Assembly (NCBI RefSeq): GCF_037392515.1
Contig: NC_090280.1
Location: 62,199,504-62,263,503, forward strand
Direction of reading: 5' to 3'
DNA: 64,000 bases
Source: Haliotis asinina
Lineage: Eukaryota; Mollusca; Gastropoda; Lepetellida; Haliotidae
Below are positions 959 to 17,160 of this stretch, piece after piece. Positions within the stretch are counted from its first letter, which is position 1; every line of letters starts with the position of its first letter. The notes under the pieces were generated by a model. It had not been told where the DNA came from, ran no database searches, and saw only the letters and a list, made by a program, of their open reading frames with translations. Made by a program: the position numbers and the translations under genes.

Positions 959-3900
959 ATGCTTTCAAGGTCTGTCCGAGCTGAAACTCGAAGTCGAGCT
1001 AAAGAAGATATCAAGAGAGTTATTAATGCTATCGATAAAGTGAGAAAATGGTGAGTATATTTGAACCGGTGGTATTTTCAGATTCTCAGTCAAAAGATTG
1101 CTGTCCGACAAAAGCCACACATTTGTACAGGACAGTAGAATGCCACTTTTACTCTAGATTCAGATTCACATTTCTGTATTCCATGGAAATGATAAATAGA
1201 TACTATAATGATTTAGTTTTAAACCTCATTAAACCCATAAGTTATTGCTCGAGTGAGAAAGAGACTTGAGTCAAAATGGTAAAGATGGCCAATGTTTACA
1301 AATGAATTTGAAGATATCGACAGGATATGGGTACCTTCACCTTCCAGTGTATCTTCAGACACCTTATCTAACCGGTCATCTGCTTGTGTGAAGTTACACT
1401 ATCCCTTCTCCTCTCCTTGTGGCTATGAATTGGCATTTATTGTCTGCCAGTGTGCACTGAACTCTTAACATTACATTGATTACTCTAAAACGAAATGAAT
1501 CACTGTAAGTAATTATTATTCTACACCATTATCATAATGGCAGTGTGCATGCAGTGTACATAATGGGTCTTAGGAGATGGTAGTTTTCACTTTCATGCAC
1601 TTAGTAAAGTTGACATATTTCCTACTTATTATTTCGTCATTTATTCATTCAATGTTTCATTTCTTCTTTCTTCTACATTTCTACACCATACGGTTCTTAT
1701 CCTTCAGTACTAAAGTGGCACCATTATGCAAGTTACATGACACCAAAAAAAGACGTATTCATGATTATGTTATATAGTTATATGTATGGACACGAATCTA
1801 AGAATGTAGAGTAATGTGTAATTAGTGCTCAAATGATTCACAGTACTTGATATTATGTTTATAGACCTATATGTGTGGATGTGAAGGTATGATGTTTACG
1901 TTGTTTCGTGAAACTGTATGTGGTCTTTAAGAGACATCTTGCATGTATCATGTCCTTGCTTAACCATCTCCGGCTTGTATTTAGTGAAACATAATTAGAA
2001 ACTTTTTTTGTTGCATTAGTTTTGTCAAGTCAGTTGTTGGTTATGGCCTGGGAGGTCCTCTGTTAAATTTGAGAGAGGGGGAGTTGAAATGAATATGCTA
2101 GCATATGAAAATTTAACAAATTATTCGGGGCGAAGACTTTTTTTAGTACTACCCCAAGAGAGTCTGTCATAAAGTTTTTCTTATCTTCAAAATACATTCA
2201 GCGATTTGTTAGCTGATGCATCAGTGATGCGTAATGGATTAAACAATGTGTTTGTGTGTGTGTGTATGCGCACGCGTGCATGTGCATGTGTATGTTTAGT
2301 TCGCAAGGATCTTCATCGTACCATTCAATAACTAATGTGAATGTAAAGAGACTTCTTACATGTACCATGTTCGGGTTGACACCTTTCTGCATGCATTAAG
2401 TTGGTATTAGTAACACTATGCCTTCTTTATAATAATTCAGTATTTAATGGAGTTTACGTATGATGTGTAGTGAGACATACAGAATCTCTCTTCATGGCTG
2501 GTGTCTTCAAGCAACTTGGTACCCATGCAAATATCATTCCAAACTTGAACTCGTGTCTGAAAAAAAAACCTTTCACATTTGGATAATAAGAACACTATGC
2601 ACACCTATCCAACACCAAAAACATCTAGAAACATGTAAACCAACAGTCAAGGGGGGCATATATGTTTCAAGACTTGCCAAAAATAAAATGAGTGTATTTT
2701 ATTGGAGGTAAGTTCCGCTCAAATTTCTTGCGGAAAGGTCCGTCAAAGAAAATGCACTCGCCGTCTAAACATGAAGTAGGTTTTGGCTGGAATACAAGTT
2801 TATTCATATGAACTACCAACACAATTTACATAATATGTTTCTTTTTGTCATTTGAATATATCATGTATGTTTGTCAACAGTATGAGGAACTGATAATGCT
2901 TTTTGACTAAGTCTAACATTATTGTCTTTTTCAGGGAGAAGAAATGGGTGACAATTGGCGATACCACCATGAGGATCTATAAATGGGTACCAGGTGGGTC
3001 ATTTTGACCAAGAGATTCCTGATTCCTGTAATGTCAGAGTCATTTGTAAAATGTAGGAACTGCCTAAAAATAATTGCAAGAAGCAACATTAATGTCTGTT
3101 AATTTCTGAGCAGAGGTGCATGACTGATCAGTATGTTGCCATAAATAGAAACATCTCATTAAATGCTCAAACATTGTTTTTCATTATGACAGAGTGGTAG
3201 CATGGTGGTTAAAGTGTTTGCTTGTCATGCCAAATCCCTAGGTTTGATTCCCCACATGGGCACTATGTATGAAGCCCATTTCTCCCACTGTAGTATTGCT
3301 GCTAAAAGCAACCCAAAGCTTAACTCACTCACTCACTCACATCTGGACAGCGTAATTGCATATTTTGCTCAGTTTCAGTTAAACAAAACGCTTTTTTAAT
3401 TTTTGATTTGTCACACGTCACGCAAAATTGATATTATGTACGCAGTTTAGGACTAATTAAGTGTAAACTATGTATTTATGTTATCACCAGGAAATATGGT
3501 TAAATTTAGCATAGTTAAAAATATTACAGAAAGTTTCAATACGTGTGACTTTGAATGTTTTCTCAATAGCAACGATGTGTGAGCCTTAGAAACGATGCAT
3601 TACAGAAATGCTTGCATGTTCCGATCGAAAATGGAAGTGTAAAAGATTGTGAGGTAGTAAAAAGCTCTGTTTTCGTTAAGATTCTTACAACTCCCTACAT
3701 ACCCACATTTGAAAAGTTGATGAGTTGTATAACCCACATTTGTTTATTCTTAGATGCAACACTGCACTCACTCATTATGGCATCGGACCTGTAGACCATG
3801 AATCCTTTGAAGTCAGTGACACATGTTTCTATTGATGTTTGATGTTTTTCATCTTGAGTCTTGTGCAATAATGACATTTCTAAAACTGTGTATTATCATG

Positions 3901-6900: not shown

Positions 6901-9900
6901 AATAATTCAGGTTATCTTTTTTGGTTTCCAAAAATAGTAATATTTACAATATCTAGTCAGACTAGTTTTTTATTTTGAAAAAATATATTTAGACTGAATA
7001 CTATGTTTTGCAACACTCTCGAAGTGAACCAGTCATTTACGTTTGACACAAACCAGGTAACGTAAATTTGGTCTTGTAATCCATTGAATGAATTTCTTCA
7101 TCTAAAACTGTTGCACATTCAACAATATTTTGTATCAAAACTGAAGTATCTTCAGTGTAGGTGCTTCTTGACACCCCTAATATTATCGTTTCACTGTTGA
7201 CATATTTTGTAAATGACACATTTTCATTATGTGCTTCATAATTATTTCTTCACCATTATCTCAGCATAAAACATAGAAAGAATCCATTCCTCAATAACTC
7301 CCCAAAGTGCCCATGTGATGCCATGATGGTCACGATGATGGTAGCTGTGTAATAGGGCTGTGTATGCTGCTAATTCTGTTTGACATGTTTCAATAATTTA
7401 TAGAATGATATTCTAGTTTAGTTTGCCTTATACCTGCCTGTTATGGCATCAGTCTGTGCTTGACCGGCCCCTGTTGTCTCTGTTTGCTAATTGGTTGCTG
7501 CCATTTTTATTTATTTCTCCCAGATTCCTCCTCTCAGTTTAGTAACCATGGTAACCACCTGCCTAAGGGCGGGACTCCATCGTCCAAGAGTCGTAGCTCT
7601 AGTAAGTCGGCTCCCGCTGTCAGTGGGCGGGGTCACCAGTTGGCTCCCACGTCATCTTCGTCCTCGTCACCTGCTGATAAACCAGTTCTCGCTAAAAGTC
7701 AATCTAGTCTAGGTTTGCTTTTCTGTTCTGCTGTTTTTGTTGCATCCGTTCTCACTGTTCTGCTTCAAGTTACACCAGTGCTCGAAAATAAGGATGATTG
7801 TCATGAGGTCCTTAATGTCCCACAAAAGTCATTGAGGTCCATAGGTTAAGCTCAGGAACCTTGCATCACCTTAGTTTCGAACACTGCACTTGTGCATTCA
7901 ATAAATCACATGGACTTGCTTGATGAACTATGCTGATGATGAGAAATCTAGGAACATCTTACAATGGAAATGTTTGGTGCAGAATGCTGTATTTACAATG
8001 GTAAACTTGGTAAAACTGGATATTCTAATGAACATATTTAATACAAATATTACACGCAGAAATAAATATTTACCAGCAGTATTTCTCATCCAGTATTTTC
8101 TTTCATCAGTATACTTGTGATTTATTGCGGATTGTGGAGAAGTATCTATCCAAGTTATTGTTTGAAACACGACTGAATTATCTTTGACTGATAGATCCTT
8201 AACCAACGTGTCCTGAGTTGAGATATAGATTTATGTCTGTTTCATAGATTTTTGTCTGATAGCTCCATGACTGATTACAAGATCCTGGTAGATAGATCCA
8301 AGACTGATCCTTGTCCGATAGATCCTTGATGGATTGATAGATCCTTGACTGTTTGACAGTCCCTGACCTGGTAGACGTATGACAGACTGATAGATCCTTG
8401 TCTGATAGATCTGAGACTGATGGATGGACCCTTGTCTAATGTATCCAAGACTGATTGATAGATCCTTGTGTGAGAGATCCAAGACTGATTGACAAACCCT
8501 TGTCTGCTGTATCCAAGACTGATTGATATATTCCTATGTGATAGATCCGAGACTGATTGAGAAACAGTTGTCTAAAAGATCCATGACTGATCAATAGATC
8601 CTTGTCTGATAGATCTGAGACTGATGGATGGACCCTTGTCTAATGTATCCAAGACTGATTGATAGATCCTTGTGTGAGAGATCCAAGACTGATTGACAAA
8701 CCCTTGTCTGCTGTATCCAAGACTGATTGATATATTCCTATGTGATAGATCCGAGACTGATTGAGAAACCCTTGTCTAAAAGATCCATGACTGATCAATA
8801 GATCCTTGTCTGATAGATCCAAGACTGATTGATAAACCCTTGTCTAATAGATACAAGACTGATCAATAAATCTTTGCCTGATAGATCTGAGACAGATTGA
8901 TAGACCCTTGTCTAATAGATCCATGACTGATGGATAGATCCTTGACTGGTTGATAGATCCTGAACAGATAGATCCTCAACTTTTTGAGACACCTAGCCTG
9001 ATAGACCCATTACTGATTGATAGATCCTTGCCTTATAGATCCAATTCTCCTCTTGCACCTGCATGTTCTTCTACCTGGTTGTTTATGTGTTGAAGTCCTG
9101 TGTTTGGTTGTTGTTGGATATAGGTCCTGTCTGTTGTGTGCTGTTTCTTCATGCAGCTTGCATGTTTGGCCTGAGGAAACTCACTGTCATATAAATCAGT
9201 TCTTCTGCTTGCAGTGCCTCTCTGCATAAAGATACAAATGCACCTCCCAAGGAAACAAAATTCTTGGTATTTTTATCTAAACATTCAGGCATGCATATCT
9301 GCCTTCTATATCCTCTGAATGAAACAAATCTGAAGTTCCCACTGCCAATGAATAAAGCAATGCCATTATATTATTTTGGATATGAAGAACTCCTTGCTTT
9401 GGAACACTGTGGCATTTACACTCAAATGGGCATACTCTTTCAGATATAGTTTTGTTCTGTGTGGATTTTCATTTGCACAAATCTGGATTTTACAATTTAA
9501 ATGGTGAAGTTAAATTGTTTTAGAAAGCTGACTTCTGATTGTCCAAGAACCCACATATGCTTCAAAAAGAAGGATATTAGTGTAGTTTCACAGTTAAAAA
9601 TAACAGCTTTAATTAATCGCATAGGTACAGAGTGTGAAACATTTCTCGTGTGTTTCCTGGAATAGTTTTATTGCAATATTGCAAAAAGTGTTGTAAGAAC
9701 CATACTCACTAACTCACTTTCAGTTAGATTGTGAAGTTACATTTCACTTATGATCCGTCAGACAGAACTTTTATGGCGCTGTCCTTAATCTTAATGCAAA
9801 GAGGTAACACATCAGGGTGAAAGATCTATTTTAATGAGTTTGATGGAGACTATCAGAGTATTAACCTCATTGCGATCAGTAGCGATTGATATGTAATTTG

Positions 9901-12900
9901 ACTGATTATCAGTGATTGTGATTAGATATACTTCAAATTTAGGCACCAAATTTTGTATGGATATTTGCCCAAACGTTTTGCTACTCAGTACCACTCTAAG
10001 ATAGACACAACTAATGTAAAGCATGGACATGCCCGTCAGTTTTGTATGGCATTTGTGACTGGAAATTTTAGGTTTTGTCTTTTTTTCAATTTTTGATTTA
10101 ATAAAAGTGGTGAGGGAGGAACACATTTTTATTTTTTTCCTCTCAGAAATACAGCTTGGAAAGTTTAGCGCATGTTAATCAGTTGTAGATTCAGCCACAC
10201 TCTTTCTTACAGACATTGATTCCTATAGTGGACAAATGGATGATCAGGACGCAGCAAAGTCAAAATTATTTTTGTAAAATGGCAATAAAAAATTGTTATG
10301 TGCACAAATAAAAATGATGCACTGATGCCCAAGAAACATTTCACTTTTTGTATTTAGCCTTATGATCTCTACAAAAGATAAATTCTGAGTTCTCTTCTTA
10401 TGTAGTGAAGCTAGAATCTGCCATATCACAAATAAAAAACCTCAGACAAACGAGAACAAATTCTTCTAACAGTAAATCAATTGCGACTAAACTTTTACCA
10501 TTAGTTATGGAACCATTTCTATATTGTTTCTTACTATGTTTACAAGTGATAATTTTGTGTAGAGAGGAATCAAATGAAAATAATTCCAGGAAAATGAATG
10601 CTTTGTTGAAGGCCAAATATGCAAGGACAGGTGGTCAAGGATTGGTGGTATTTATGTTATTTTTGGTGTGTAAGAGATAATTTAGATGTTTTCACCATCA
10701 ATGATTCAAGGGGTGTACTGGTACCTAGTACCAACCTTTGCATAAGAGCTGATGAAAATCAAGTTTGGTGTTAATATGTAACCATGGTAACCTAAGCAAT
10801 TGTGTTGTCACACTCAAACATGAACTTTTTTCTCCGTGTACTAGGCCCAGTTCCACAAATGATCTAATGATTGTAGCGCCACAACTATTGCAAGTCTGTG
10901 TTGCCCTGTGGGATTAACAATTACCTCAGTGCTAAGATTGTTTTGTGGAACAGGGCTCAAACATTGTTATATGAATTCCACTAGGATAATTGTGATTTTA
11001 TATTTAGTCTGGCATAAAATAACATTCACTTATGCACAGTGTTATATAACATGACTGGTCACAGACTAACACAACCTTCAGTCACATCCTAATGCATGTA
11101 AACAGTACTAACAAGTGTTGTCTTGTTGAACATTCCACAGTGTGTCCCACTCTTCCCAGCATGCATCACTCTCCTTAGCTTGTTGATGTGAGCACAGTTA
11201 TCTCCCTTGCCAAGGAGAGGCCATTAGTGGTACAGATAGAAATGGTTGTTACTAATATATATTTCACGGTGAGGGCTCATGAGTTAAGAAAGAGTTTCAG
11301 CATGATGTGTTGGGAATGGTTTAAAATGGTACTTTTATGATACAAAAGATTGAATCTTAATAGATACACTTATAACCATGTTTTTATTTGCAAGGTAAAT
11401 GTGGAATTTGTTAAAAAAAATTCTTTATTCTCATGGTTATTGCATTTGAGGAAACAGACTTGTTGAAGTGAAAAAGGCATTGTTTTTCATAAAAGTCAAT
11501 TTCTGTTCGTCTTTTTCTATCTATTCCCTATAAGTATTGTTTTCCGTCACCAAGTTAAATTGTTTATCTATTTTGCAGACTATATTTGCTCAACATCATT
11601 TTATCAATGTATTTTTATAATTTTGATCCAGAGTTAATTTTAGTGAAATCAGCTTACAAAACTGTGAAACTTTCAGTACTTCTTCGGTACAATTTGCAAT
11701 TATAAGAGTAGTGACAACTAGCAGAACTGAAGCTTTAGGGGGTGTTTTCTTATAACAACCTGTCAGCACTATTGTCTGGTTCACGGGTGTTCACACAAAT
11801 ATATACACATGCGTAACTCTGTTATCTGTGTATACACGGATGTTTGATACACCATGTTTGACAGTGTGTGTGTCGTTGTGGGTCATTGGCATGTTATCAA
11901 ACACCAACCCTGCTATGAGTCAGTTCAAAAGGAAGTCTAATGCTTGTTAATTATTTGCTTTAATTTGCATGATGAGATACATATACTCTTTAGTTACCAA
12001 GCTTGATTACAGTACACCATTATTTACTGATCAGATATTGCGCATGAAGTTCTAGAAATGCCTGGAGAGCTAGTGTAGGCTGAAGAATAAATGATGTCAC
12101 AAGTTCACAGAACTCCTTTCCAACCGTTCTAAATGTCTATGGATTTATCCATACCTGCACAAAGACCAATATGTAACCCATGTTTACAGCAGACGGCTGA
12201 ACAAGGTCCGATTCAAACTGATTTGCCAAATTCATTTTGTTGTACTTATGTCTGATGTTAATGCCTTTCAAAGATGACTTGTAAGATGTTATTTTTTGGA
12301 TTACACTTTTTCAGTAAAGTACAGATACTAGTACTTTTTTTAAAAGTTGAGCCCTGGTACTACAGTGCTAGAATCTGTAATTTACTGAGAAAGTGTGACG
12401 CCTAATAGGACGTGTGTTAAACCTGACCACTTTCAAACTGGGGTTGTGTACCTGGTGTTGGGTATTCAAATCTGACTTGCACATCACTGATCCCATGACC
12501 AGTAAAGAAGATGCTTAAATGCACAGTTGAATATCAATTCCTTGAATTGAATATTAAATTACAGTTTTAAATGCCTCTGAAAATAAGAAAAACTGAAATT
12601 CCAAAAAATATTTTTCCAGTTGAAACTGAAGGAGAGTTTGTTTTTGAATCTTCAATAGATCTTAGAGAAATCTAACCAATGTTTTCTCCACTTTGTAAAT
12701 AGTGAACTTGTGACAGTGCTTTGACTTATTTTATACCCTAGTGTTACACCCCTGTCTCTTCATAGTGTTAATTGTCTATAGGAACTTGGCTTTTATGGCA
12801 GTCTATTTTGTTGAATGTTTATAGGTACAGTGATGATTTAGGACGAAGGGTTTGGAGCCAGGTGAGCATTAGACAGTTGCAGGATGTTGTGTTTGTATTT

Positions 12901-14147
12901 CAGCATCAGCTATGTTTGGTGAAGACAGCACCCAGCAATCCTTCAATGATAGCGAGAACATGAACGAGGACTCAAACATGTCCTTTCCGGATCACTCTGT
13001 CCCAGACTTCTCCCAGGACAGCAATGATGTTGATCCTGATCTCAGAGTGGGATTGTGTAAGTGTGCACTTAGATCCTGATCTCAGGTTGGGGTTGTGTAA
13101 GTGTGCTCTTCGATCCAGACCTCATAGGGGGCTGTGTAACAGTGGTCTTAGATCCAGGTCTCAGAGTGGGGTTGTGTAAGTGGACCTTTGGTCTAGATCT
13201 CAGATTGGGGTGTGTAAGTGGACCTTTGGTCTAGATCTCAGATTGGGGTTGTGTGAGTGAACCTTTGGTTTAGATCTCAGATTGGGGTGTGTAAGTGGAC
13301 CTTTGGTCTAGATCTCAGATTGGGGTTGTGTGAGTGAACCTTTGGTTTAGATCTCAGGTTGGGGTGTGTAAGTGGATCTTTGGGTTTTGCTTTGTGCCGT
13401 AGGTGAGTGTCTGGCATGCTTTAACAAGCTATGAAAAGAGGAAACATACATAGCAGTGTTATGTGTAGGTACTTATACAGTAGGACAATAATTTGACAAC
13501 ATTTAGGCACAGAAGTTAAAGGTAAAATCCAGCTGGTGTCCAGAACAATGCTTAAGATAGAACGGAGACGATCTGGACTCATCAGATCACACTGGAATTT
13601 ATATTCAGTATATCATCTTGCATTTCTTTTATTGAGGCGACATTTTGAAACAGAAATGAATGGCCCATGATAGTCATAGATTTATAGTAAACCGTAAACA
13701 GTTTTAAAGTATAGATTGGTCTGAGGCTGGATGTTTGCTTCTGTGATGGATGGGAATGGTTAAATGATAATGAATGTGTCGTGGACTTCTAATCAAGTCC
13801 TGTTGTCTGGATACTGATGTTCTTCTCTTTATTGTATCAGCCATGAGTCTGGGTCGAGACGAGGACAAGTCCCTGAAAGGAGACGAAACTAATGGTAGGT
13901 TTTAGGAAACTAGTATGTTACTCCATGTTTAATTTATCAACTTTTTGCTTGGCCATAAAGTATTCATTTTCCAGGAGGCATATTCAAGTCATGAACTTTT
14001 CTTAATTGCTTGGAAGGTAATGATTGATCACTCATTCACTTACTCCGTCTTTTATATATTGCAGATTCAGAACCACCTGTCTTGGAGCCAGAGCTTGACC
14101 CACCCCCCAGCAAGCGCTCCCGCTCGGACACACCCACTACCAGCTGA
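959..14147 (+). CDS. BCL7: BCL7 family protein, SWI/SNF (BAF) complex subunit, 8 coding exons
   Basis: Exons are 959-1050, 2935-2993, 3980-4002, 5681-5768, 7524-7712, 12904-13056, 13841-13894 and 14065-14147. All introns are GT-AG, phases agree, and the sum is 741 nt (246 residues plus TGA). BCL7 proteins are small nuclear accessory subunits of SWI/SNF chromatin remodellers. The diagnostic N-terminal domain occupies residues 1-52: it opens [20 protein letters not shown] and continues through KVRKWEKKW to RIYKWVPV, nearly identical to human BCL7A/B/C. The rest is low complexity: lysine-rich (exon 4), a serine-rich block (exon 5), an acidic D/E/S/N block (exon 6), and a tail with [11 protein letters not shown]. 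Human members are about 200-230 residues, so the length fits. The start is chosen because it matches the family N-terminus. An exon 3 of only 23 nt is unusual but keeps the frame. Paralogue assignment (A, B or C) is not possible. Confidence 0.95.
1051..2934. other. BCL7 intron 1
   Basis: A 1.9-kb intron of A/T-rich unique-looking sequence. The only structure I see is a short (GT)n/(GC)n tract at about 2253-2298. No coding exon or full transposon is recognised. Confidence 0.6.
2253..2298. repeat. Alternating purine-pyrimidine (GT/GC) microsatellite
   Basis: A run of GTGTGTGT followed by GCGCACGCGTGCATGTGCATGTG. It lies inside BCL7 intron 1. Confidence 0.7.
3191..3340 (+). mobile_element. SINE family A (tRNA-derived), diverged copy
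   Basis: Family A begins with a tRNA-like head (A box around GTAGCCTAGTGGTTAAAGC, B box GGGTTCGATTCC). It continues with CACATGGGTACAATGTGTGAAGCCCATTTCTGGTGT and ends in a TATTGCTAAAAGCGGCGTAAAAC-type tail plus (ACTC)n. This copy has a recognisable head, middle and (ACTC)4 tail but several substitutions. It sits in BCL7 intron 2 in sense orientation; the rest of that intron (2994-3979) is unremarkable. Confidence 0.75.
4066..4100 (+). mobile_element. SINE family B scrap
   Basis: A short stretch (GTCGCTAAAGGCAACTAAGG, then GGATTAGGTGGT) matches the middle of SINE family B. A second scrap with the same words lies at about 4343-4382. Both are in BCL7 intron 3. Confidence 0.4.
4590..4684. mobile_element. 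Palindromic fold-back MITE
   Basis: Left arm 4590-4627 and right arm 4647-4684 are imperfect reverse complements over about 37 bp (both contain GATTTTC and CTTAGC-CTAAGATAG), with a 20-nt loop. The arms contain the TTAGCGCTAAG word common to the other palindromic MITEs here (10844, 22736, 43258, 49059, 49231). It lies in BCL7 intron 3 (4003-5680), which otherwise holds SINEs. Confidence 0.55.
4975..5116 (+). mobile_element. SINE family A, 3'-truncated copy
   Basis: The tRNA-like head (GGCCTAGTGGTTGAACTG) and the conserved middle (CCCATATGGGTACAGTAAGT, AAGCCCATTTCTGGTGTC) are clear. The copy loses similarity after the TATTGCTGG word and lacks the (ACTC)n tail. It lies in BCL7 intron 3. Confidence 0.65.
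5315..5482 (+). mobile_element. SINE family A, near-consensus full-length copy
   Basis: This is one of the best family A copies. The tRNA-like A box (GTAGTCTAGTGGTTAAAGC), the B box (GGGTTCAATTCC), the middle and the tail GCGGTGTAAAACCAAACTC with (ACTC)3 are all intact. It ends about 200 bp before BCL7 exon 4, in sense orientation. Confidence 0.88.
5848..6010 (+). mobile_element. SINE family A, diverged copy
   Basis: The head (GTGGTCTGATGGTTATAATG), the B box (AGGTTTGATTCCC) and the (ACTC)n tail are recognisable, with a degenerate centre containing a run of A. It lies in BCL7 intron 4, shortly after exon 4. Confidence 0.65.
6487..7180. mobile_element. Possible hAT-like non-autonomous DNA transposon
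   Basis: The ends TAGGGGTG (6487) and CACCCCTA (7173-7180) are inverted, as in hAT-type termini. The interior is A/T-rich with ATTGCAATATATATTG-like stretches that recur near the right side, and it has no coding capacity. I could not see a convincing 8-bp target duplication, so the assignment is weak. It fills most of BCL7 intron 4 (5769-7523). Confidence 0.3.
8240..9040. repeat. Minisatellite of GATAGATCC-TTG-CTGAT units with higher-order duplication
   Basis: The basic unit is about 34-36 bp and reads roughly GATAGATCCAAGACTGATT then GATAGATCCTTGTCT. Roughly 20 diverged copies follow one another. A block starting at 8401 recurs almost unchanged starting at 8605, giving a higher-order period of about 204 bp over some 170 bp. 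Short reading frames across it on the minus strand are a by-product of the repeat. Confidence 0.9.
9620..9718 (+). mobile_element. SINE family A, 3' fragment
   Basis: Only the 3' half is present: GGTACAGAGTGTGAAAC, then ATTGCAATATTGCAAAAAGTG and ACTCACTAACTCAC. The tRNA head is missing. It lies in BCL7 intron 5. Confidence 0.6.
10111..10375 (+). repeat. Dispersed repeat, copy 1 (second copy at 48541)
   Basis: About 265 bp that match 48541-48800 at roughly 80-85% by eye, in the same orientation. Shared words include GAGGAACACATTT, AATACAGCTT, GATGATCAGGA and AGAAACATTTCACTTTTT. There is no ORF, no terminal inverted repeat and no tRNA-like head, so the class is unknown. Confidence 0.75.
10844..10957. 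mobile_element. Palindromic MITE with GGCCC-GTTCCACAAA ends
   Basis: The left end AGGCCCAGTTCCACAAA is mirrored by TTTTGTGGAACAGGGCT on the right. The interior holds TAGCGCCACAA and CAGTGCTAAGA words in opposite orientation. The length of about 114 bp is typical of this family in the window. It lies in BCL7 intron 5. Confidence 0.75.
13032..13390 (+). repeat. Minisatellite seeded from the BCL7 exon 6 donor site
   Basis: Nine tandem units of 38-45 bp. The first unit is itself the last 25 nt of exon 6 plus the start of the intron (GATCCTGATCTCAG, AGTGGGATTGT, then GTAAGTG at 13057). Later units begin at 13072, 13112, 13151, 13196 and 13234 and continue to about 13390. Eight of nine keep a donor-like GTGTAAGTG or GTGTGAGTG; the unit at 13112 has GTGTAACAG. 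Units 5-8 form two repeats of a 77-bp dimer. The rest of intron 6 (13391-13840) and intron 7 (13895-14064) show nothing notable. Confidence 0.9.
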
Positions 14148-14429: not shown

Positions 14430-14790
14430 GTTTGTATGTACCTGAAACAGTCCAGACAGGTGTGAAGGTAGTTTTGTATGTACCTGTGACTGTCTGGACT
14501 GGTGTGAAGGTATTTTAGCATCTATCTGTGACTGTCCGAACAGGTGTAGGGGTAGTTTTGTATGTACCTGTGACTGTCTGGACAGCTATAGGGGTAGTTA
14601 CATGTGTACCTGTGACTGTCCAGACAGGTGTGGGGATAGTTTTGTATGTACCTGTGACTGTCAGGACAGGTGTGGGTGTAGTTTTGTATCTACCTGTGAC
14701 TGTCCGGACAGGTTTGGAGGTAGTTTTGTATGTACCTGAGACTCAACAGACTAAGGTAGTTTTGTACGTACATCTTACTGACATACTGGT
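14430..14790 (+). repeat. 42-bp minisatellite in BCL7 3' UTR/flank
   Basis: About eight units of roughly 42 bp, each containing GTAGTTTTGTATGTACCTGT, then GACTGTCCGGACAGGTGTG. The CTGTCCGGACAG word within the unit is itself a palindrome. Because 42 is a multiple of 3, a short open frame with a 14-residue period runs through it; this is not evidence of coding. It starts about 280 bp after the BCL7 stop codon. Confidence 0.9.
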
Positions 14791-15332: not shown

Positions 15333-16049
15333 TTATGAAACTTTTTCCAGATGTTTGTAAAAGCTCTACATGTGTGAAGTACATATGATGATTCTGTGGT
15401 ATATGTCCAGACTCTGCTCATACTTGTATTACATTTCGCCATATTGTCGTGTCATCTGTGGGCATTAACTTTTCAACATCTGTGTCAAATTATGAAAGGA
15501 AGGAATGCAAACACGTGAGAAAATAAAAGCTGAAATTGTAACCTGTGTTGTTGTATTTAGGAAGATAGATGGTAAATAAAATTAATGGTAGAAATATTGC
15601 TGACAGGCACCCTATTAGTAATTCAGTCATAATGGTCTAATGATGGCAAAGATGTTCCCAATCAAGTTTCAGACGTGACAGTTATGCCCTTTAGGATTGA
15701 CTCTTGATCAGAATTGGTCTCCAACAATCTATGCTGGTCACTACTGACCAGTGGGGATTGGGCATTCCAACATATGTTGATTACAGGTCACTGAAGCCTG
15801 ATGATGTGGATTGTTGTTCTTACTTAACACTATTGACAGATTGTTTGGTCCAGACTTGATTATTTATAAACTGTTGTCACATATAATGAATGGCAAAAGA
15901 AGCACAAGTTTTGAAAAAATGAAATCTGTAAAGGTAGAATTCATGTCTATGTCTTTTGCTGTTTAGTATAGTTGGAATCCCCAGTCTTAAATAAAACATG
16001 TAACAATTGATCACGTTCTAAATGGCATTGTGCATCCATAATTTCAACT

Positions 16050-16900
16050 GTGGGAGCTGTTAGTTTACAATTGTCAAAGGGGTACACCAATGTATGGCAT
16101 TGTGCACCCATATCTTCTACTGTGGGAGCTGTCAGTTTACACTTGTCAAAGGGGTACACCAATGTATGGCATTGTGCATCCATATCTTCTACTGTTGGAG
16201 CTGTCAGTTTACACTTGTCAAAGGGGTACACCAATGTATGGCATTGTGCACCCATATCTTCTACTGTTGGAGCTGTTAGTTTACACTTGTCAAAGGGGTA
16301 CACCAATGTCTGGCATTGTGCATCCACATCTTCTACAGTGGGAGCTGTCAGTTTACACTTGTCAAAGGGGTACACCAGTGTATGGTATTGTGCACCCATA
16401 TCTTCTACTGTGGGAGCTGTCAGTTTACACTTGTCAAAGGGGTACACCAGTGTATGGCATTGTGCATCCATAATTTCCATAATTTCAACTGTGGGAGCTG
16501 TCAGTTTACACTTGTCAAAGGGGTACACCAATGTATGGCATTGTGCACCTATATCTTCTACTGTGGGAGCTGTCAGTTTACACTTGTCTAAGGGGTACAC
16601 CAATGTATGGCATTGTGCACCTATATCTTCTACTGTGGGAGCTGTCAGTTTACACTTGTCAAAGGGGTACACCAGTGTATGGCATTGTGCACCTATATCT
16701 TCTACTGTGGGAGCTGTCAGTTTACACTTGTCAAAGGGGTACACCAGTGTATGGCATTGTGCACCTATATCTTCTACTGTGGGAGCTGTCAGTTTACACT
16801 TGTCAAAGGGGTACACCAGTGTATGGCATTGTGCACCCATATCTTCTACTGTGGGAGCTGTCAGTTTACACTTGTCAAAGGGGTACACCAATGTATAGCC
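16050..16900. repeat. 72-bp minisatellite, ~12 nearly identical units
   Basis: Units of exactly 72 bp (for example GGGAGCTGTCAGTTTACACT at 16052 and 16124) repeat about twelve times with very few differences; one unit near 16465 carries a 12-bp duplication. All three plus frames and one minus frame (314 residues, 15947-16891, repeating YPFDKCKLTAPTVE) are open over much of the array. A period divisible by 3 without a stop gives this automatically, so I do not call a protein. It lies between the converging BCL7 gene and the gene at 21575-30227. Confidence 0.92.
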
Positions 16901-17160
16901 TTGATTACCAGTTGTCAGACTTCTGTGTTGGGTGTTTATGGCTACGGTGGTTAAATTGCTGTGTTTGTAGCAGTTACGTGCCTTATTTTGAGGGTATGGG
17001 TTAGAATCCTGGATGGGACTCTCTGTGTTTTACTGAGAAAGTTTAATCTCAATAATAACATGTAGCTGTTTCAGTTTGGAGTATGCTGAAAGTAATCCTT
17101 TTGGTGTCCACACTCCCACTTATACAGGTTCACTGGTGATTCAGCCAATAGCAAAACCAG

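Follow-up and report, generated by a model that had tools for sequence, protein, structure and literature searches.

Can a minisatellite that lies across an exon/intron junction, and repeats the splice donor downstream of its exon, be carried by a gene as a passive passenger? The question is raised by a BCL7 gene of Haliotis asinina, found in a window of 64,000 nucleotides (the whole stretch of DNA analysed here), in which a tandem array covers the end of the penultimate coding exon and places copies of its donor in the following intron. The array is real but probably passive, and the account that we favour, with more confidence than doubt but well short of certainty, is that of a locus-specific, fairly young minisatellite whose decoy donors are passengers and at most latent, while the donor at 13057 is the one in use.

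A tandem array across the end of a BCL7 exon

By its sequence, the plus-strand gene is a member of the BCL7 family. Two of its exons match the BCL_N domain (PF04714) with 56.1 and 37.2 bits (cut-off 25), the peptide of exons 1 and 2 matches human BCL7A at 6.5e-23, and among the matches listed there was no second BCL_N locus in the genome searched (1.14 Gb, 159 contigs). The penultimate coding exon follows the acceptor TTTCAG, keeps an open frame ending in ...DPDLRVGL and passes this frame on to the last exon, which begins directly after TATATTGCAG and encodes (Y) plus 26 residues, a conserved-looking tail that includes a PPPSKR stretch. Human BCL7 proteins have a C-terminal acidic/PP-x-KR tail, which the PPPSKR stretch may resemble. 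The C-terminal half of the protein gave no match to PDB chains up to E = 10. Because exon 4 is tentative and exon 5 was not identified in the gene model, the exon that the sequence-only reading had numbered 6 is named here by its penultimate position. An alternative last exon within the intron was considered and is disfavoured by the absence of AATAAA and ATTAAA from 13057-14064.

Features of the BCL7 gene and its array (positions within the window)
Feature	Position	Strand	Remarks
BCL_N exons of BCL7	965-1054 and 2936-2992	+	profile matches
Tentative BCL7 exon 4	about 10566-10630	+	phase 1 at both ends, poor acceptor, 22-residue peptide
Penultimate coding exon	12904-13056	+	153 nt, phase 1 at both ends
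Repeat unit 1	13030-13069	+	unit alignment; first 27 nt (13030-13056) exonic
Likely authentic donor TGT/GTAAGTG	13057-13063	+	one of two GTs among 56 with in-frame join
Predicted RNA hairpin	13058-13110	+	-20 kcal/mol, z -4.24; 3' stem includes decoy donor 2
Repeat units 2-9	13070-13383	+	units 5-9 alternate 38/39 bp, 77-bp dimer pattern
In-frame TGA	13077-13079	+	stop common to all decoy donors and intron retention
Decoy donor 2	13097-13103	+	nine-base core same as real donor; stop 17 nt before junction
Donor-like TAG/GTGAGTG outside repeat	13403-13409	+	top score in 12981-13450
Last BCL7 exon, coding part	14065-14147	+	stop TGA 14145-14147

Tandem Repeats Finder reported the array at 13038-13383 (period 39, 8.9 copies, 84% matches), with a 77-bp dimer of 4.4 copies as an alternative for the same interval, and at 13032-13254 (period 40, 5.7 copies). 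Counted from the donor motif, it comprises nine units of 38-40 bp between 13030 and 13383, spaced in order by 40, 39, 40, 38, 39, 38, 39 and 38 bp, with the donor positions at 13057, 13097, 13136, 13176, 13214, 13253, 13291, 13330 and 13368. GTAAGTG is present in six units (1, 2, 4, 5, 7 and 9) and GTGAGTG in units 6 and 8, so that seven of the eight downstream units carry one or the other; at the donor position of unit 3 the bases are GTAACAG. Five of the eight copies repeat the real donor's nine-base core, TGT/GTAAGT, without change, and two more have TGT/GTGAGT. On inspection, a GGGG run stands in eight of the nine units, and unit 1 has GGG. Likeness to the unit ends abruptly on both sides, with nothing above shuffles either in the exon upstream of 13030 or in the 117 bases past 13383, and a repeat reaching deeper into exon or intron is thereby rejected. 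The observations in the sequence-only reading are borne out by these analyses: the exon and its donor belong to a BCL7 gene, as the BCL_N matches and the in-frame join indicate; the nine-unit array starts inside the exon according to both Tandem Repeats Finder and the unit alignment; its first unit unites the last 25 coding nt with the donor (25 when counted from 13032, 27 from 13030); and the alignment recovers a row of donor copies, with a donor-like motif in eight of the nine units.

Other arrays lie nearby, and together with this one four lie within 8.6 kb (8381-8948, 13030-13383, 14431-14743 and 16022-16903). The array at 14431-14743 (42-bp units, 7.5 copies) starts about 285 bases past the BCL7 stop codon and is possibly part of the 3' untranslated region, and that at 16022-16903 (72-bp units, 12.1 copies, 93% matches) is open on both strands for 295 aa (+) and 360 aa (-), repeating TLVYPFDKCKLTAPTVEDMGAQCH.

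Donor choice and the consequence of using a decoy

All 56 GT dinucleotides from 12930 to 13410 were tested as donors, and from two of them, at 13057 and 13063, the spliced frame runs on to the normal stop. The only in-frame rival, 13063 (AGT/GTGCAC), is a poor site that falls under the listing score of 2 on the donor matrix used, and 13057 is therefore likely the donor in use, judging from frame and site score. On that same matrix 13057 scores 5.14 (U1 pairing -7.3 kcal/mol), which is intermediate among the donors of this gene (10.33 for exon 1, 9.93 for exon 2 and 2.86 for exon 3). Twenty bases past the end of the array, and not part of the repeat, the site at 13403 is a near-perfect donor (10.87 on this matrix, -12.5 kcal/mol), and its use would likewise meet the stop at 13077. 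The weakness of 13057 beside the far higher score of 13403 speaks against a wholly passive array, and leaky use of decoys is possible, since 13057 is weak on this matrix and five decoys share its core.

The sequence-only reading had expected a frame shift from the 40-bp spacing of the early units, an expectation that fails because the in-frame TGA lies in unit 2 upstream of the donor of that unit, so that the use of any decoy, however the units are spaced, would end the protein at one shared codon. At each of nine later sites (the eight downstream units and 13403) the protein ends there and the tail encoded by the last exon is lost. This stop lies 17 nt short of the junction if decoy 2 is used and 56 nt short of it at the broken site of unit 3, and in units 4-9 the distance is 96-288 nt, which leaves decoy 2 as the only one with the stop within 50 nt of its junction. 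Under the general 50-55 nt rule for nonsense-mediated decay, if it applies in this animal, the mRNA from decoy 2 would be truncated but stable, and those from units 4-9 would be targets of decay. On the passive account that we prefer, the 5'-most donor at 13057 would be used because it closes a normal-sized exon of 153 nt, and the decoys would be latent donors at most, rarely used; rare use of decoy 2 would then give one truncated protein, and rare use of the later ones would give mRNAs whose premature stop lies farther from the junction.

The same arrangement could be read as a functional one, in which the decoys are actually used, decoy 2 for a truncated BCL7 without the basic SKRSRS tail and decoys 4-9 for poison-exon mRNAs, with array length tuning the dosage of BCL7. 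The donor core kept in eight of nine units is consistent with such a role, as are the single stop that serves all decoys, near the junction for decoy 2 and 56-288 nt away for the later ones, and the precedent of human IFI6, which employs two downstream repeat units as donors (PMC4526556). We nevertheless regard it as unlikely, because the exon would have to lengthen to 464 nt if the donor of unit 9 were used and because the donor columns of the alignment show no special conservation. In a comparison of nine related units, which has little power, the majority base makes up 93% on average over the six donor columns, which rank 11 of 33 six-column windows, and CTCAG and its neighbouring columns are conserved as well or better. 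Arrays with a triple GTAAGTG are likewise not in excess genome-wide, at 5,715 matches versus 8,919 for the reversed control pattern (overlapping matches within one array being counted more than once). Selection keeping the decoy donors thus found no support in either comparison. Tandem duplication would copy the donor along with the remainder of the unit, and we infer that the decoys are passengers of this process.

RNA folding offers a further candidate for a role. The predicted hairpin has its 3' stem over 13098-13106, paired with 13063-13071 and covering decoy 2 except for its first base, and the donor at 13057 stands at its base. None of 200 shuffles folded as well, and among 1,500 random 53-nt stretches of the window none had a z as low and two had an energy as low; of seven local stretches folded it alone stood out, the other six having z between -0.18 and +1.09. 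The hairpin might act as a shield that buries decoy 2, the nearest competitor of the real donor and the predicted source of a stable truncated mRNA, and in an 80-nt folding window the openness is indeed 0.13 at 13057 versus 0.018 at decoy 2. In longer folding windows, however, this difference disappears or reverses (0.010 and 0.003 for 13057 versus 0.011 and 0.018 for decoy 2), and the stretch was chosen after a global fold that was itself less striking (z -1.68, 7 of 100 shuffles as good), which makes a shielding function rather improbable. Pure passenger status leaves the predicted hairpin over decoy 2 unexplained, and it may be due to chance. The most elaborate combination, a length-variable splicing rheostat in which the row of donors competes, the hairpin between units 1 and 2 shields decoy 2, leakage to later donors supplies mRNAs for decay and the repeat number sets how much of a chromatin regulator is made, strikes us as very improbable.

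Origin and genomic background of the array

Similarity among the units suggests serial tandem growth, because identity to unit 1 falls along the array in pairwise comparison (85% for unit 2 and 61-78% for the others, the lowest being unit 9, which was scored with an overhanging end) and because units 5-9 form near-identical dimers, with no difference between units 6 and 8 and 97% identity between units 5 and 7. These near-identical units and the 77-bp dimer period point to recent growth of the 3' half of the array.

Two origins can be proposed, seeding of the array by the exon or acquisition of the exon's tail from the array, and either can be combined with the passive account of function. In the alternative to seeding, the exon once ended upstream of 13030 and then captured the donor in the leading unit of an array already present, which would have added about ten codons and would make the repeat older than the exon tail. 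The base at -1 fits this proposal, being T in the donor at 13057 and G in the four other modelled BCL7 donors (exons 1, 2, 3 and tentative 4), and on inspection the protein join is smooth and its phase unchanged (G + AT) when the repeat codons are left out. The sharp repeat edge within the exon also agrees with capture, but an edge of this kind would result whichever of the two came first, and no relic donor is found at the upstream edge, where the bases are ATGTTG and not GT. Derivation of the exon tail from the repeat is plausible on these sequence grounds, and capture is a serious contender that we nonetheless hold to be somewhat less probable than its contrary. In favour of seeding by the exon, a genome search at up to three mismatches located the unit at no second place.

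That search returned five matches, all of them inside the array (13038, 13078, 13157, 13234 and 13311), with one chance match for the reversed control; it recovers only five of the nine array units, and copies as diverged as the remaining four would escape it. With the whole array as the query, only the array itself was found. No other copy appeared at this threshold, and one outcome named as refuting the sequence-only reading, a repeat unit without similarity to the exon, thus did not arise within this genome. A dispersed repeat family likewise received no support, the matches at up to three mismatches lying at a single locus. A viral contig collection scanned for relatives gave three pattern matches, none of which was confirmed.

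Arrays as such are plentiful in this genome. When defined by a period of 15-100 and at least four copies, 29 arrays occupy 6.1% of the bases in a 200-kb sample of contig C1, taken as 20 pieces of 10 kb at even intervals, and two of the 29 have GTRAGT in their unit; in the window, eight arrays occupy 4.1% of the bases, and GTRAGT occurs in the unit of one, the BCL7 array itself. The latter is far beyond chance as an array. Free placement of arrays would put a few per cent of donors inside one, and with arrays this plentiful an array over a donor is an expected accident, though selection should remove many.

Comparison with known repeats and splice sites

Minisatellites that engulf a splice junction are of interest because they show how splice sites that compete with one another can arise in rows through tandem duplication, bringing a gene closer to new isoforms or to a change in exon length. 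Five decoys in one intron whose nine-base core equals that of the real donor would make a natural test of position versus sequence in donor choice, and if the array is inert, a row of identical donors can be tolerated. In the titles and abstract openings covered by our search of the literature on minisatellites and splicing and on mollusc BCL7, there was no record of the BCL7 array, and three of the items returned (PMC1559703, PMC3045353, PMC12783039) are, in the parts available, unrelated to it.

The closest precedent, by analogy, is human IFI6, to whose kind the BCL7 array belongs. IFI6 units are short and in frame, and use of a downstream unit keeps the frame. Turri, Cuin and Porter reportedly described the IFI6 (6-16) minisatellite with its multiple splice donors in 1995. 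Two downstream minisatellite units of IFI6 (6-16, G1P3) serve as donors (PMC4526556). As in IFI6, the minisatellite in BCL7 lies over an exon/intron junction, and copies of the donor recur in its units past the end of the exon; unlike IFI6, whose isoforms are in frame, BCL7 has units of 38-40 bp and an in-frame stop before decoy 2, and use of downstream units would consequently not keep the frame.

Other systems share single aspects with the BCL7 array. VNTR6-1 in intron 6 of TERT is likewise an intronic array of similar unit length (38 bp) that affects splicing; it works through an expandable G-quadruplex and is polymorphic at 24-66.5 repeats (PMC11830802), whereas the BCL7 array has nine units and the TERT abstract describes no donor-array mechanism. 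CeRep25B of C. elegans is another invertebrate minisatellite adjoining splice decisions, located near alternative splicing regions and carrying regulatory heptamers (PMC4039745); it is dispersed, whereas the BCL7 unit was found at one locus only (at up to three mismatches). Latent 5' splice sites, which are described as scattered in human introns (PMC8890436), resemble the BCL7 decoys in being donor-like intronic sites whose use would yield nonsense mRNAs, and the BCL7 row differs from them in its regularity and in its derivation from duplication of a real donor.
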